Source of the DNA: Nitrospirales bacterium
GTDB taxonomy: Bacteria > Nitrospirota > Nitrospiria > Nitrospirales > UBA8639
Reading direction: 5' to 3'
Length of the DNA: 64,000 nucleotides
Assembly (NCBI GenBank): GCA_022825885.1
Contig: JAJDVY010000050.1
Coordinates: 1-64,000, forward strand
The notes below the pieces were generated by a model that was given only the letters and a program-made list of their open reading frames with translations, did no database searches and was not told the DNA's origin. Positions 5,050 through 58,334 of this stretch are shown here, one piece after another. The position numbers and the translations under genes are program-made. Numbering within the stretch: position 1 is the stretch's first letter; the number at the start of each line of letters is the position of its first letter.

Positions 5050-5367
5050 ATGGAGACTAACGTCGTCTTTGACACCCACGCTTACATCAAAAGCATGACC
5101 GATGCCGGTGCCGAGCCGCGATTGGCTGAAGCCATCGCGCAAGGGCAAATCGCATACCTCAATGCAACGGCCGCGACGAAAACCGATATTGCCAAGATCC
5201 AGCACGACATTGAACTTCTGCGCAAAGACACGAAAGTGGAAATCGCGAATTTGGAGACCAGACTAACGAAAGCGCTCAGCGACACACAATTTAAAATCAT
5301 CGTCTGGAATGTCGGCGCTCTGTTCGCCTTCGGCGGTCTCCTCGTTGCGCTGTTCAGATTTTTCTAA
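5050..5367 (+). CDS. Small coiled-coil membrane protein, DUF1640-like
   Basis: This 105-residue protein has three parts. An N-terminal segment contains FDTHAYIKSMTDAGAEPRLAEA. A helical, charged coiled coil covers residues ~40-80. A single hydrophobic C-terminal helix (VWNVGALFAFGGLLVALF) ends the protein. This matches DUF1640-type proteins, related to the mitochondrial CCDC90/MCUR1 family; their bacterial role is not established. AAAGGAG sits at good spacing before the ATG. A second member with the same layout lies at 57.9-58.3 kb and carries a long repeat array in the coil. The gene stands alone between repeat-rich gaps. Confidence 0.75.
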   Translation: METNVVFDTHAYIKSMTDAGAEPRLAEAIAQGQIAYLNATAATKTDIAKIQHDIELLRKDTKVEIANLETRLTKALSDTQFKIIVWNVGALFAFGGLLVALFRFF

Positions 5368-42419: not shown

Positions 42420-43997
42420 TCAGGAAGAAATCATCAACCGCCGCCCGACCCGAATCAGACTGCTTCGCAAATTATTCAGGACCTTCAGCTCCTTCACCGA
42501 TACTCGAAACCGCTTGGCAATACTCCAGAGGCTGTCGCCCATCCGCACGCGATACCACGTCACTTCCCCGGCCTTCGCCACGTCCCGGTTGACGCGCAAC
42601 CGCTGCCCAACCCTGATCAAATTCCCCGAGAGATCGTTGAGGCGCTTCAATTGCCGGACGCTGGTCCCGAAACGATGCGCAATCGCCGATAGGTTGTCTC
42701 CCCAACGCACGCGATACCACGTCGCCCCCCCGGCCTTCGTCACGGCCCCGGCCTCTATCACGTCCCGGTTGACGCGCAACCGCTGCCCAACCCTGATCAA
42801 ATTCCCCGAGAGACCGTTGAGGCGCTTCAATTGCCGGACGCTGGTCCCGAAACGATGCGCAATCACCGATAGGTTGTCCCCCCAACGCACACGATACCAC
42901 GTCTGCTGAGACGGACGTTGCGTCCACGTCTTCATTCGGGCTTTGACCTGCTCCACGCGCCCTGACGTTCCCACGGGAACCTTGAGAGCATAGCCGTTCC
43001 GGTCCGGTGGAATGACGCTACGGCGGAGTTCAGGATTCAACCGCAGAAGTTCCTCAAAAGCGATCCCCGACGTCTTGGCAACGGATCGCAAATGGATGGA
43101 CCTGTCCATGGGAATCTCTTCGTATTGATGAACCGGTTGAAAATTCGCGTGAAACCCAAACAGCGAGGGACGCGCAGCAATAATCATGGCAGCCATGAAC
43201 CTGGGGACGTATTGCTTGGTTTCCCGTCGAATGTAGCGGGTCCTGGCAATCGTCCAGAAGTCCCGTGTCCCGGTTCTATCAATCGCACGGCTGACCTTCC
43301 CGGCCCCGGCGTTATAGGCCGCCAGCGCCAAGGGCCACGAGCCGAACAGGTCGTACAGATCCCGCAGGTGTCTGGCCGCCGCGACTGTGGATTTGATGGG
43401 GTCCCGGCGTTCATCCACGTACCAGTTGACCGTCAAGCCGTACATCCGTCCCGTACTCCTGATAAACTGCCACGGACCCGACGCGTGCGCGCGTGAATAA
43501 GCCCTGGGGTTAAATCCGCTTTCGACCAACGACAAGTACACCAGTTCTTTCGGCAAGCCGAACTCAACAAAGATCTGCTCGATTAACGGCCGGTAGGGAT
43601 AGAATCTGGTCAACCATTCTTGAAAGCGGTCATGAATCACGTTTTGAAAGTAGTGAATATTGCGTTCGACTGCAGGATTGACGATAACGGGAATATCTTC
43701 ATACCCGAGGTCTTCCCCTTCCTGGGGGGGAAGAGCCTGCCCTGAGCTTGTCGAAGGGGCTGGGGTGAGGGAGGCATGAGTGGCAGAACGGGATTGGGAG
43801 TCCGGGGGGAAATACAAGAGCCCCCTGGAACTGAACGGTAAGGGCGGAGATGACGACATCGCCGCATCCGGCGATTGGGGAATACCGGCAGCACGAACGT
43901 CGCCGGCACTAAAGAAAAACACTGATAGGCAGAGCGTGAAGAACGAAACAACGCTCAAGCAAGAGCTGTTTTCTTCTAACCAGTTGATTTTTCTCAT
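42420..43997 (-). CDS. mltD: MltD-like lytic transglycosylase with three LysM domains
   Basis: From ATG 43997 the product is 525 residues with a signal peptide (CLSVVSFFTLCLSVFFFSAG). The catalytic SLT domain spans ~120-260: GLPKELVYLSLVESGFNPRAYSRAHASGPWQFI contains the catalytic glutamate, and LALAAYNAGAGKV follows. Three LysM peptidoglycan-binding domains end the protein (TWYRVR.GD.L..IA.RF...V..LK.LN). The first two are nearly identical at DNA level over ~165 bp. The enzyme would cut glycan strands to anhydro-muropeptides. A linker at ~80-95 is encoded by an interspersed repeat. Confidence 0.92.
   Translation of the reverse strand: MRKINWLEENSSCLSVVSFFTLCLSVFFFSAGDVRAAGIPQSPDAAMSSSPPLPFSSRGLLYFPPDSQSRSATHASLTPAPSTSSGQALPPQEGEDLGYEDIPVIVNPAVERNIHYFQNVIHDRFQEWLTRFYPYRPLIEQIFVEFGLPKELVYLSLVESGFNPRAYSRAHASGPWQFIRSTGRMYGLTVNWYVDERRDPIKSTVAAARHLRDLYDLFGSWPLALAAYNAGAGKVSRAIDRTGTRDFWTIARTRYIRRETKQYVPRFMAAMIIAARPSLFGFHANFQPVHQYEEIPMDRSIHLRSVAKTSGIAFEELLRLNPELRRSVIPPDRNGYALKVPVGTSGRVEQVKARMKTWTQRPSQQTWYRVRWGDNLSVIAHRFGTSVRQLKRLNGLSGNLIRVGQRLRVNRDVIEAGAVTKAGGATWYRVRWGDNLSAIAHRFGTSVRQLKRLNDLSGNLIRVGQRLRVNRDVAKAGEVTWYRVRMGDSLWSIAKRFRVSVKELKVLNNLRSSLIRVGRRLMISS
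42553..42905. repeat. Two-copy ~180-bp direct repeat (LysM units in mltD)
   Basis: About 165 bp from 42553 onward is repeated with few changes 180 bp later (to ~42905); both contain CGCAACCGCTGCCCAACCCT and TTGCCGGACGCTGGTCCCGA. Each encodes one LysM domain. The near identity suggests recent duplication or gene conversion, with copy number able to vary by recombination. Confidence 0.85.
43715..43775. repeat. Interspersed repeat inside mltD reading frame
   Basis: The segment CTGCCCTGAGCTTGTCGAAGGGGCTGGGGTGAGG, with the preceding CCCCTTCCTGGGGGGGAAGA, matches in inverted form the composite unit at ~46752-46805. It is read in frame as ...TPAPSTSSGQALPPQEGE..., between the signal region and the catalytic domain. 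Confidence 0.8.
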
Positions 43998-44057
43998 ATT
44001 TTTCTCATGCTTTTCAGCATGGCATTGGAATGTAACCGGAATGCACGTCTCTGTCAA

Positions 44058-46149: not shown

Positions 46150-46805
46150 ACGCTGACATTTTCCGCTCTCTTCCCTTCCGTCATTCTTGTATGTGTTCAG
46201 TCATTCCCTTCGCTACGCTTCCTTCGGCTACGCTCAGGACAGGCAGGGCAGGCGTTGACAAGATGCATTGTCTCTTTCTGTCATGCCCGGCTCGATCGGG
46301 CATCCAGCATCTTTGCTGTTGCCTTTCGTCCGTTCTCCTTCTGTCATTCTCGACAAAAAAACTGGATCCCCGATTAACAATGTCGAGGACGAATCCCGTG
46401 TTTTGTCTTTCTACGCCATTCATAAAAGACAAAGACCCTGGATCCTCGCGTGCGCAAGGATGACCACTCCTTCTGTCATGCCCGGCTCGATCGGGCATCC
46501 AGCATCTTTGTGGTTGTCTTTCGTCCGTTCTCCTTCTGTCATTCTCGACAAAAAAACTGGACCCCCGATTAACAATGTCGAGGACGAACCCCGTGTCTTG
46601 TCTTTCTACGCCATTCATAAAAGACAAAGACCCTGGATCCTCGCGTGCGCAAGGATGACAGAGAAAAGCGTAAGGACGACGGAGAAAAGCGCAAGGATAA
46701 CCACTCCTTCTGTCATGCCCGGCTCGATCGGGCATCCAGCGCCTTTGTCCTTGCCCCCTTACCCCAGCCCCTTCGACAAGCTCAGGGCAGGCTCTCTCCC
46801 ACCAA
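46150..46805. repeat. Dense repeat field with ~190-bp direct duplication
   Basis: Beginning with CATTCTTGTATGTGTTCAGT and the CTCAGGACAGGCAGGGCAGG unit, the region then holds a unit of about 200 bp twice in tandem (about 46277-46475 and 46476-46672). The unit is CTGTCATGCCCGGCTCGATC...GGATCCCCGATTAACAATGT...AAAGACAAAGACCCTGGATC. A third partial copy starts at ~46711 and leads into the CTTCGACAAGCTCAGGGCAGG composite unit. The long frames across it are repeat translations, not genes. Confidence 0.85.
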
Positions 46806-46851
46806 AAGGGAAAACGGGGTTGGAGGTTACTCGTGCAAACATCGCATTGCT

Positions 46852-46990
46852 ATGCCATGCTATGATTTTGCTATGCCATGCTATGCCTTGCTATGTTTTT
46901 GCTATGTTTTGCTATGATTATGTTATGAATTGCTATGTTTTATGCTATGCAATGCTATGTTTTGCTATATCCTGCTATGATTGTGCTATG
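46852..46990. repeat. GCTATG-motif repeat tract
   Basis: Twelve exact GCTATG hexamers and two near copies (GTTATG, GCTATA) occur in about 140 bp, spaced 9-14 bases, with T-rich variable spacers. The tract is not a simple tandem and not a CRISPR, since units are far too short. It separates the repeat field from the glycosyltransferase gene. Confidence 0.85.
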
Positions 46991-47045
46991 TTCCACAAAG
47001 CTGTCGGCCAGTCAGGGAGTTAGTCAAGGCTTCACAAGTTGTACG

Positions 47046-48831: not shown

Positions 48832-49926
48832 TTGATACCCGGCCAACGCCTGATGTCGAGGATCGCCTTGACGCCCGACAAGATCGAAGTGATCGCGCCG
48901 AATCTCAAGCGACGCCTGTCGGGTGTCACGGCCACGATCGTGCGGTTGTTGCCGGTGCAGGCCGAATCGATCGGGATCGCGGCGACCGGCCCGGGGCTGC
49001 CGGCTCACGTCCCCCATATCCCGCTGTGGTCCGTGATCCGGATGTCCGGACGGACGTGCCGGGTTTGGCACGCGCGGCGCAACACCGAGATGCTCTTCGG
49101 GCTTGTCCTGCGTCACGTTCTCAGAAAGCGCCTGAAGCTCGTGTTCACCTCCGCCTCGCAGAGACATCACACGCGCTACACCCGCCTGCTGATTTCGGGC
49201 ATGGATGCCGTCGTCGCCACGTCACGCAAGTCCGCGTCTTACCTGCGCCGCCCGGCGCGCGTGATCATCCATGGGATCGACACCGGGACGTTTCACCCCC
49301 CACGGGACCGGCGCGCGCACCGGCGTTCACTTGGTCTGTCCGAAAACCTGACCATCGGGTGCTTCGGACGCATCCGGCACCAGAAGGGCACGGACGTGTT
49401 CGTCGACGCGATGCTCGCAGCACTACCCCGGCACGCCGGAGTGACGGCCCTGGTGATGGGCCGCGCCGCGCACAAGCACGGACCGTTTTTACAAGAACTG
49501 CGCGAGAAGGTGGCACAGGCGGGGCTCCGGGACCGGATCCTGTTCCTGCCGGAGGTACCGGTGGAGGAGATGCCGCGCTGGTATCAGGCACTCGACCTGC
49601 TCGTGGCCCCGCAACGCTGGGAAGGCTTCGGGCTGACCCCGCTCGAAGCGATGGCATGCGGTGTGCCGGTAATCGCCACGACGGTCGGGGCTTTCGACGA
49701 GTTGGTGGTGGAGGGCAAAACCGGACGCCTGATCCCTCCCGGTGACGTGGAACGGATGCGCGCGGCGGTCGATGCCACGCTTGCCTCACCCGCCACGCTC
49801 CAGCAATGGTCGACCGCAGCCCGGCGCCACGTCGAGAAAGGATTTCGAATCGAGGACGAGGCAACGGCCCTCAACGCACTCTACCGGGAACTGCTGGACG
49901 GCGGCGAGGAACACGAACCTGAATAA
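48832..49926 (+). CDS. Glycosyltransferase family 4, LPS-core type (full copy)
   Basis: The 364-residue protein has the GT4 motif QRWEGFGLTPLEAMACGVPVIATT near residue 275 and a donor-side start region with HARRNTEMLFG at ~80. It resembles LPS core mannosyl/glucosyl transferases. Start TTG 48832 abuts the pyrE stop; ATG 48853 is possible. It is very GC-rich compared with the genes at 53-57 kb. Bases 49263-49905 recur at 51605-52247, where a truncated second copy lies. Confidence 0.88.
   Translation: MIPGQRLMSRIALTPDKIEVIAPNLKRRLSGVTATIVRLLPVQAESIGIAATGPGLPAHVPHIPLWSVIRMSGRTCRVWHARRNTEMLFGLVLRHVLRKRLKLVFTSASQRHHTRYTRLLISGMDAVVATSRKSASYLRRPARVIIHGIDTGTFHPPRDRRAHRRSLGLSENLTIGCFGRIRHQKGTDVFVDAMLAALPRHAGVTALVMGRAAHKHGPFLQELREKVAQAGLRDRILFLPEVPVEEMPRWYQALDLLVAPQRWEGFGLTPLEAMACGVPVIATTVGAFDELVVEGKTGRLIPPGDVERMRAAVDATLASPATLQQWSTAARRHVEKGFRIEDEATALNALYRELLDGGEEHEPE
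49263..49905 (+). repeat. 643-bp direct repeat, copy 1
   Basis: Begins GATCATCCATGGGATCGACA and ends with CTGGACGGCGGC. Copy 2 at 51605-52247 has the same length with about 3% base changes by eye and no indel. It encodes the C-terminal two thirds of the glycosyltransferase. Confidence 0.93.
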
Positions 49927-50103: not shown

Positions 50104-51327
50104 TCAGAGGTAGGCGATGGGAACAGCGGTCACGGTTTCTGAAAGGGGAATCGCTTGTTCTACGAAACACAACACGGAACCGTGCCCGACTCGCTTGCCG
50201 AGCTTCTCCAGCAGGCGAAAATGCCGGGATGCTGTTTTTGAGGGAGTTGCGGTTTTTTTGAATTCTACCGGATAAAAGGCGTCACCCGTTTCGATAATCA
50301 GGTCAACTTCTCGCTGATCAATATCCCGAAAGTAATAGAAGTGCGGCTCCACGCCATTGTGCCAATAACTCTTCAGAATCTCAGCAAACAGGTACGTCTC
50401 AAGAAAAGCACCTGACGAGGCTCCGGCCTCTAACGAAGCCGGCGTCGGCCATTTGCACAGATACGTACATAACCCCGTATCGAGAAAATACAACTTCGGT
50501 GCTTTGACAAGGCGTTTCGTGACGTTACGATAATAGGGTTTCAGCAGATAAATCAGCCCTGAAGTTTCAAGAACGGAAAGCCATGATTTGGCTGTTTTAT
50601 TGTCAATAGCCACGTCCCTGGCCAATTCTGCATAATTAAGCAATTGTCCCGTTCTGGCGGCTACGGCGCCTAAAAACTGATGGAACGAGGTTTCGTCAGA
50701 AATGGAGAGAATGTCTTTTACGTCACGCTGGATGTAGGTCTGAACATAGGACCGATAAAAAAGATTGTGCGTGGGGCCTTCGGCATCATTCACTTTTGGA
50801 AAGGAGCCACGCCAAATCCGTTTATAAATGTCCATCAAACGTTTAGGCTCTTCGACGCGTTTTTTCGCTAGCTCAATCCAGGCTGGCGTTGGAACGAACG
50901 GCGTGACTATTTGGCTTCGATGATCGATCTCTGCTTGCGAAAGACCTAAAAGATCAAGAACGGCGACGCGGCCGGCAAGACTTTCCGTGATTCCTTTCAT
51001 GAGGTGAAACTTTTGCGAACCGGTGAGCCAGAACATCCCGTTCTTTTTCTCACGATCGACGACGATTTTCAGATAACTGAATAATTGAGGAGCATATTGC
51101 ACTTCATCAATAATAATCGGCGGTCTGTATGTTTGGAGAAAGAGACCGGGGTCATTGCGGGCCAGTCCCCGGGCATCCAGGTCATCGAGGGTGACGTAGT
51201 TTCTGTCGGCTTCAGCACACATCTGCAGCAGGGTTGTTTTACCTACCTGACGCGGACCAGTCATCAACAGAACGGGAAAACTACCGTTGACGTGTTGAAT
51301 CGTGCTAGCTAGTGTTCGCCGATACAT
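50104..51327 (-). CDS. AAA ATPase with DUF4143 domain (copy 2)
   Basis: The 407-residue protein has Walker A MTGPRQVGKTTLLQM at ~residues 22-36, Walker B PIIIDEVQYAPQLF and sensor WLTGSQKFHLM. The C-terminal DUF4143 region has YFRDIDQREVDLIIETGDAFYPVEFKKT, a restriction-nuclease-like acidic/lysine pattern. It is only distantly similar to copy 1 at 17.8 kb. It lies between the two 643-bp repeats and faces the glycosyltransferases, which marks it as an insertion into that locus. A large palindrome precedes it. Confidence 0.9.
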   Translation of the reverse strand: MYRRTLASTIQHVNGSFPVLLMTGPRQVGKTTLLQMCAEADRNYVTLDDLDARGLARNDPGLFLQTYRPPIIIDEVQYAPQLFSYLKIVVDREKKNGMFWLTGSQKFHLMKGITESLAGRVAVLDLLGLSQAEIDHRSQIVTPFVPTPAWIELAKKRVEEPKRLMDIYKRIWRGSFPKVNDAEGPTHNLFYRSYVQTYIQRDVKDILSISDETSFHQFLGAVAARTGQLLNYAELARDVAIDNKTAKSWLSVLETSGLIYLLKPYYRNVTKRLVKAPKLYFLDTGLCTYLCKWPTPASLEAGASSGAFLETYLFAEILKSYWHNGVEPHFYYFRDIDQREVDLIIETGDAFYPVEFKKTATPSKTASRHFRLLEKLGKRVGHGSVLCFVEQAIPLSETVTAVPIAYL

Positions 51328-51380: not shown

Positions 51381-51604
51381 TTATTCTGGAAGTCAAGGTA
51401 CATGTACTCTCAAATTCGTCTTGCCTTTCATCGCAGAACGCCGTCCGGAAGGCTCGCTGATATGTTCGACAGCCGCTGTAATCTTGGGTTTGCCAAGTCC
51501 CGGATGAGGTGAGCATGGGGGTTCTGATTTATCGACCGACTTCGGTGCTGATACCGGAAGAGAGTGCGTGCAGGAGAGCCTTCTTGTCACGTCGAAGCAC
51601 GGTC

Positions 51605-52250
51605 GATCATCCATGGGATCGACACCGGGACGTTTCACCCCCCACGGGACCGGCGCGCGCACCGGCGTTCGCTTGGTCTGTCCGAGAACGTGACCATCGG
51701 GTGCTTCGGACGCATCCGGCACCAGAAGGGCACGGACGTGTTCGTCGACGCGATGCTTGCAGTACTGCCCCGGCACGCCGGGGTGACCGCCCTGGTGATG
51801 GGCCGCGCCGCGCACAAGCACGGACCGTTTTTACAGGACCTGCGCGAGAAGGTGGCACAGGCGGGGCTCCGGGACCGGATCCTGTTCCTGCCGGAGGTGC
51901 CGGTGGCGGAGATGCCGCGCTGGTATCAGGCACTCGACCTGCTCGTGGCCCCGCAACGCTGGGAAGGCTTCGGGCTGACCCCGCTCGAAGCGATGGCATG
52001 CGGTGTGCCGGCAATCGCCACGACGGTCGGGGCTTTCGACGAGTTGGTGGTGGAGGGCGAAACCGGGCTCCTGATCCCTCCCGGTGACGTGGAACGGATG
52101 CGCGCGGCGGTCGATGCAACACTTGCCTCACCCGCCACGCTCCAGCAATGGTCGACCACGGCCCGGCGCCACGTCGAGAAAGGATTTCGAATCGAGGACG
52201 AAGCAGCGGCCCTCAACACACTCTACCGGGAACTGCTGGACGGCGGCTAA
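51605..52250 (+). pseudogene. Truncated second copy of the LPS-type glycosyltransferase
   Basis: Bases 51605-52247 repeat 49263-49905 and encode the C-terminal ~215 residues, with intact EGFGLTPLEAMACG. The N-terminal acceptor domain (~145 residues) is missing; the frame opens at 51564 with unrelated residues. It ends with TAA directly after GGG-rich LLDGG, six residues shorter than copy 1. Without the N-terminal Rossmann domain it is unlikely to be active. It may be a donor for gene conversion. Confidence 0.85.
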
Positions 52251-57624: not shown

Positions 57625-57798
57625 ATGAACGTCATGACGCTCGGGAACATGAAGGCAAAAATTGAGTTTGATCAGGATACGGCATTGTTCCGTGGAGAGA
57701 TCCTGGGATTAACCGGTAGTGCGGATTTTTACGGGAAAACGGTGGCTGCGTTGAAGCAGTGGCAGGAGCGTTTTTTTCAAGAAGAGGCGTCTTGCTAA
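57625..57798 (+). pseudogene. HicB-like antitoxin fragment
   Basis: A 57-codon frame reads KAKIEFDQDTALFRGEILGL then GSADFYGKTVAALKQW, the first half of HicB/DUF1902-type antitoxins. It stops where the family usually continues into FE..VDDYL and a DNA-binding part. No hicA lies next to it. It is probably a remnant; an independent small gene cannot be excluded. Confidence 0.6.
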
Positions 57799-57854: not shown

Positions 57855-58334
57855 TTAAAGGAGTTTCACCAGCGTGGCTACGACGCCAATGCCGACAACC
57901 AGCATCGAGCCCAGACGAATTGTGAGTTGCAGGGTCAACCGGGCTTCCAATTCCTTCATCTGGTGGTTGAACTGGGCTTCCAGTTCCTTCATCTGGTGAG
58001 TCAACTGGGCTTCCAGTTCCTTCATCTGGTGAGTCAACCGGGCTTCCAATTCCTTCATCTGGTAGTTGAACTGGGCTTCCAGTTCCTTCATCTGGTGAGT
58101 CAACTGGGTCTCCAGTTCCTTCATCTGATGGGTTAACCGGGTTTCCAATTCTTTCATCTGATGGGTCAACCGAGCCTCCAATTCCTTCAAGTCGTGCTTG
58201 GTGGCTAGCTTCTCATCAATCAACTGCGCCTGGGAGTCTGCGAGCACTTCGGCTTGGGATTCCGGCATGCCCGCCTGTGTCAGACGCTTCACGAACGTAT
58301 GTGTATCAAAACTGAGCGTGCTCATCCCGTTCAC
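57855..58334 (-). CDS. DUF1640-like membrane protein with hendecad repeat array
   Basis: The 159-residue protein shares its layout with the gene at 5.05 kb: LSFDTHTFVKRLTQAGMPESQAEVLAD, a charged helix, and a single C-terminal membrane helix (LGSMLVVGIGVVATLVKLL). Its middle consists of seven 11-residue units, ELEA(R/Q)LTHQMK and variants, plus an eighth worn unit. Units come in a higher-order R-Q-F pattern (ARLTH, AQLTH, AQFNH). Eleven-residue periodicity suggests a right-handed coiled coil. Copy number could change by slippage. Function is unknown. Confidence 0.75.
   Translation of the reverse strand: MNGMSTLSFDTHTFVKRLTQAGMPESQAEVLADSQAQLIDEKLATKHDLKELEARLTHQMKELETRLTHQMKELETQLTHQMKELEAQFNYQMKELEARLTHQMKELEAQLTHQMKELEAQFNHQMKELEARLTLQLTIRLGSMLVVGIGVVATLVKLL
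57930..58180. repeat. 33-bp tandem repeat array
   Basis: Seven to eight units of about 33 bp, CAGTTCCTTCATCTGGTGAG and following, encode the 11-residue repeats of the overlapping gene. Units differ by a few bases each, and groups of three recur, which indicates block duplication. Confidence 0.9.

Follow-up and report, generated by a model that had tools for sequence, protein, structure and literature searches.

Related systems

Membrane proteins of the CCDC90-like family (DUF1640, PF07798), which includes human MCUR1 and CCDC90B, yeast Put6 and Put7, and prokaryotic homologs, have a known architecture; a 2019 paper in Structure on MCUR1, CCDC90B and their prokaryotic relatives reportedly describes it as head, neck, stalk and anchor. 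In DUF1640 membrane proteins a beta-layer with the consensus [aliphatic]-A-T-K-[polar]-[DE] is found where the C-terminal stalk begins (PMC4786415). Both Put6 and Put7 are integral membrane proteins that face the matrix (PMC7519068). Trimeric autotransporter adhesins such as NadA3, which contains undecad coiled coils (PMC6191539), likewise have a head on a stalk whose coiled coil contains 11-residue repeats, and these adhesins carry beta-layers at the stalk and neck (PMC4786415). An 11-residue helical periodicity also occurs in the 11/22-mer repeats (PF01442) of apolipoproteins A-I, A-IV and E.

The gene described here occupies positions 57855..58334 on the minus strand of the window, the 64,000-nucleotide stretch of a Nitrospirales bacterium contig that was analysed. 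It very probably encodes a tail-anchored CCDC90-like (DUF1640) protein with a head, a neck, a stalk that changes by 33-bp units and a membrane helix. With the CCDC90-like proteins it has in common an FDTH-type head, an ATK beta-layer neck, a coiled-coil stalk and one C-terminal transmembrane helix. It differs from them in a stalk of near-identical tandem hendecads, 98 residues long compared with a median of 36 in 71 relatives, and in an ortholog group that falls just under the Pfam cut-off. The notable part is not the architecture but the variation in stalk length, and what is specific here is the long, near-identical hendecad array together with the many paralogs in the genus. Unlike the adhesins, the protein has no signal peptide or outer-membrane barrel apparent in its sequence and terminates with one hydrophobic helix; another membrane and topology are therefore expected. 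It shares the 11-residue periodicity of the apolipoproteins, hence a repeat-driven match to PF01442, but is set apart from them by a narrow core stripe, the CCDC90-type head and the C-terminal anchor.

Gene and genomic context

The open reading frame encodes 159 amino acids from a GTG codon. An ATG at 58325, three codons inside the GTG, coincides with the position where the orthologs begin; because of this correspondence the true start is probably the ATG, giving 156 amino acids. Residue numbers below are those of the 159-residue frame. Neighbours at the locus include coaBC, rpoZ, gmk, yicC, nth and hflX. An antisense reading frame (57927..58136, plus strand) was dismissed as a mirror image of the hendecad array. 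A further frame at 57625..57798 (plus strand) resembled a HicB antitoxin remnant by eye, and was set aside when a Pfam search of it gave no match.

Head and neck

The head (residues 9-44, FDTHTFVKRLTQAGMPESQAEVLADSQAQLIDEKLA, 58203..58310) matches both PF07798 and CCDC90B. PF07798 scores 31.3 bits (E 2.2e-7) against the window protein and matches all ten aligned relatives. The ortholog group as a whole scores 26.6-33.0 bits, just below the curated Pfam cut-off of 33.5 bits, and paralogs that share this head within the genome lie above it (34 to 39.9 bits). Where an ortholog has one unit or none, the profile aligns to the head alone (profile positions 1-36), and the match is therefore not driven by the repeat. 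A depressing effect of the array on the window protein's Pfam score was considered and dropped, as orthologs lacking the array score no higher. A profile of the relatives (A1) finds the solved human CCDC90B construct 6h9m with an E-value of 3.5e-4, the next match being at 0.93. From these comparisons the head is homologous to that of the CCDC90-like family of MCUR1, CCDC90B and Put6/Put7. Where the stalk begins, the neck motif LATKHD (residues 43-48, 58191..58208) agrees with the beta-layer consensus of DUF1640 proteins.

Whole-protein searches reveal less. The repeat draws them to apolipoproteins in both Pfam and the PDB, and an NCBIfam search of the window protein returned nothing but repeat-driven matches far below the cut-offs. 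The original prediction, made from the DNA alone, recognised the array and the anchor but overlooked the CCDC90-like (DUF1640) head and neck and some eleven paralogs.

The hendecad array

The stalk consists of seven full 33-bp units encoding 11 residues each (residues 56-132, 57939..58169), with the consensus LTHQMKELEA(R/Q). In order these are LTHQMKELETR, LTHQMKELETQ, LTHQMKELEAQ, FNYQMKELEAR, LTHQMKELEAQ, LTHQMKELEAQ and FNHQMKELEAR. Ahead of them and in the same register lies a diverged eighth unit, TKHDLKELEAR (residues 45-55, 58170..58202). Self-identity at a lag of 11 residues is 0.79 over residues 49-132, compared with a maximum of 0.23 in 10,000 shuffles, and the seven units predicted earlier are thus borne out. 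Tandem Repeats Finder reports two periods for the gene, one of 33 bp (7.8 copies, score 341) and one of 99 bp (2.6 copies, score 407). Counted over all eight units, the DNA of units 4, 6 and 7 is identical and a single base distinguishes unit 5 from unit 8. A higher-order pattern had also been proposed; the higher-scoring three-unit period does exist, yet in only about two copies, and it looks like the trace of a block of units duplicated recently, not like a super-repeat with a function.

The longest exact repeat within the gene is 44 bp, and the array should therefore survive short-read assembly. The contigs of two relatives break inside hendecad arrays (at the end of L054, position 5243, and at the start of L031), and unit numbers are therefore partly lost in the draft genomes of the genus.

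Other repeats occur elsewhere in the window. A 180-bp tandem duplication (42558-42903, 1.9 copies, 93% matches) lies inside a minus-strand reading frame (42420..44057), and presumably, judging by eye, corresponds to a LysM-like segment of a lytic-transglycosylase-like protein. A 195-bp tandem duplication (46272-46659, 96% matches) is followed at 46847-46992 by an array of 10/21/31-bp units of the TTGCTATG type. The plus-strand frame at 51564-52250 repeats the C-terminal part of a glycosyltransferase-like frame at 48832-49926 (plus strand), with which it shares IIHGIDTGTFHPPRDRRAHRRSLGLSEN, as if partly duplicated; an ATPase-like frame (50104-51327, minus strand) lies between the two.

Stalk and membrane anchor

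The AlphaFold2 monomer prediction, made with ten sequences, consists of a helix at residues 11-20 and one continuous helix at residues 25-158 (mean pLDDT 89.3). For the stalk, the hydrophobic moment is highest at a period of 3.67 residues per turn. Within each unit Leu1, Met5 and Leu8 fall within 66 degrees at 11/3 periodicity, and this narrow stripe and its period are as for the seam of a hendecad coiled coil. A hydrophobic segment at the C terminus (residues 140-159, RLGSMLVVGIGVVATLVKLL, 57858..57917) is present in all relatives. The predicted helix and the stripe agree with the earlier proposal of a long coil before a C-terminal anchor, and the modelled protein has the DUF1640 order of coiled-coil stalk followed by C-terminal transmembrane helix. 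A Foldseek search of the model against the PDB found nothing significant (best E 2.2), and is uninformative for one long helix.

At 0.15 nm per residue, the 98 residues between neck and anchor of the window protein amount to about 15 nm. The corresponding distance is 54 residues in an ortholog with three units and 32 in one with a single unit.

Variation in stalk length

Orthologs at the same locus beside coaBC in related species have seven, three and one units. The three-unit copy is that of Nitrospira sp. RHO3_bin_20 (G011, L053) and the one-unit copy that of G005 (L056), while the copy of G009 (L054) is cut by a contig end inside the array. Elsewhere, neither the copy in Nitrospira bin75 (L057) nor the one in a genome labelled Binatia (L058) has an extra unit. 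The in-frame expansion and contraction by 33 bp put forward in the original prediction is therefore seen between species at one syntenic locus. The head is under strong purifying selection, with dN/dS of 0.04-0.07 between the window and its relatives. Comparison of the array's units with one another gives pS 0.41 and pN 0.084. The heads of L053 and L056 are separated by a dS of only 0.10 and their arrays by two units. Taken together, these values indicate a sequence that is selected and a stalk length that changes fast.

Length differences were compared among related members with at least 75% identity in the head and at least 50% in the tail. Most are of 4, 7, 11, 15, 18, 22, 29, 36, 40, 44 or 47 residues. 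Among 103 differences, multiples of exactly 7 show no excess (12, with 14.7 expected) and multiples of 11 do (24, with 9.4 expected). Unique differences per cluster concentrate at multiples of 3.64 residues, with a score of 0.75 against a maximum of 0.37 in 5000 trials with individual lengths jittered by as much as 5 residues; this whole-turn test is post hoc, devised after viewing the same differences, and pairs within a cluster are non-independent. Steps of 3.64 residues are what a coiled coil should look like if its length drifts and its register is kept. Eleven residues make three helical turns.

Paralogs and distribution

A profile search of the window's own genome gives 13 matches. As two of them represent the window gene in two halves, it has about 11 paralogs there, one of them with an in-frame stop. 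A related genome (G013) has 21 matches. Matches occur in 13 of the 14 genomes of the genus and, in a sample of the phylum, in 13 of 118 genomes, mostly in few copies. At least 2.5 tandem 33-bp units are present in 23 of the 89 distinct family proteins recovered, nearly all of these from the genus, and in some family proteins heptad arrays replace the hendecads. The 71 stalks that could be measured range from 14 to 212 residues.

One further CCDC90-like paralog lies within the window at 5059-5286 (plus strand); it has the head FDTHAYIKSMTDAGAEPRLAEAIAQGQ and no tandem array. Four are found within about 8 kb of contig C37 (G000, L142:8113-16234). The one at L142:8113-8424 (minus strand) is flanked by frames of 510 and 1361 amino acids, which by eye look like conjugation proteins of the TraH and TraG kinds. 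Paralog G000:C9:7037-7402 (L017) carries a hendecad array of the KKDIEGLRAAT type with alternating R/H, and G000:C49:67994-68278 (L022) one of the RQETKGNIETL type. These arrays are of unrelated sequence, so arrays arose more than once in the family.

Alternative explanations

The 11-residue periodicity could instead belong to an amphipathic helix that lies along the surface of a membrane or of lipid, in the manner of apolipoproteins, and is additionally anchored by the hydrophobic tail. Matches to PF01442 (41.8 bits) and, in the PDB, to apolipoproteins A-IV and E would fit such a helix, but all are confined to the repeat, and the PF01442 score falls well short of that family's cut-off, 90 bits. 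The hydrophobic face, a narrow stripe of Leu/Met at positions 1, 5 and 8, suits a coiled-coil core, the head and neck belong to a coiled-coil family, and the paralogs with heptads in place of hendecads keep the coiled-coil seam. A surface-lying helix is therefore very improbable. We give equally little credence to the view that the gene matters little and its repeats slip neutrally, or that the frame is not expressed. Tandem repeats of 33 bp do slip easily and unit number does vary, but the low dN/dS of the head, the excess of pS over pN between units, the conserved synteny and anchor, and length steps of whole helical turns all argue against it.

Another possibility, in line with the ruler of the original prediction, is that selection, or phase variation inside a population, tunes the unit number, such that the stalk acts as a molecular ruler setting the working distance between head and membrane. 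Close species differ in unit number, the small dS between the three-unit and one-unit heads implies a fast change of length, and paralogs of one genome have different stalk lengths. Relaxed constraint on length, however, explains this fast drift at least as well as tuning, and a ruler is considered unlikely.

Proposed function

In the preferred reading, that of a tail-anchored CCDC90-like protein, the beta-layer neck would connect a small helical N-terminal head to the stalk, an alpha-helical coiled coil that is probably a parallel trimer and ends in a C-terminal membrane helix. By analogy with the matrix-facing Put6 and Put7, the head is probably cytoplasmic. The stalk lengthens or shortens as 33-bp units are duplicated in tandem or lost, always in frame; each adds about 1.65 nm with the hydrophobic core in register, because eleven residues complete three turns. 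Selection conserves the head and tolerates changes in length. The protein may serve as a scaffold or tether that offers its head to a partner, either soluble or in a membrane.

More tentatively, and with considerable doubt, the genus may possess its own set of CCDC90-like tethers, numbering between 10 and 20 per genome in certain species, in which stalk evolution by whole turns places different heads at graded distances from the membrane and yields a natural series of coiled-coil spacers. Functional data on bacterial members of the MCUR1/CCDC90B family are few. A paralog-rich genus, with orthologs at one locus that differ by whole helical turns, offers a natural series in which the importance of stalk length can be examined, and the case shows how coiled-coil stalks change in length in evolution.
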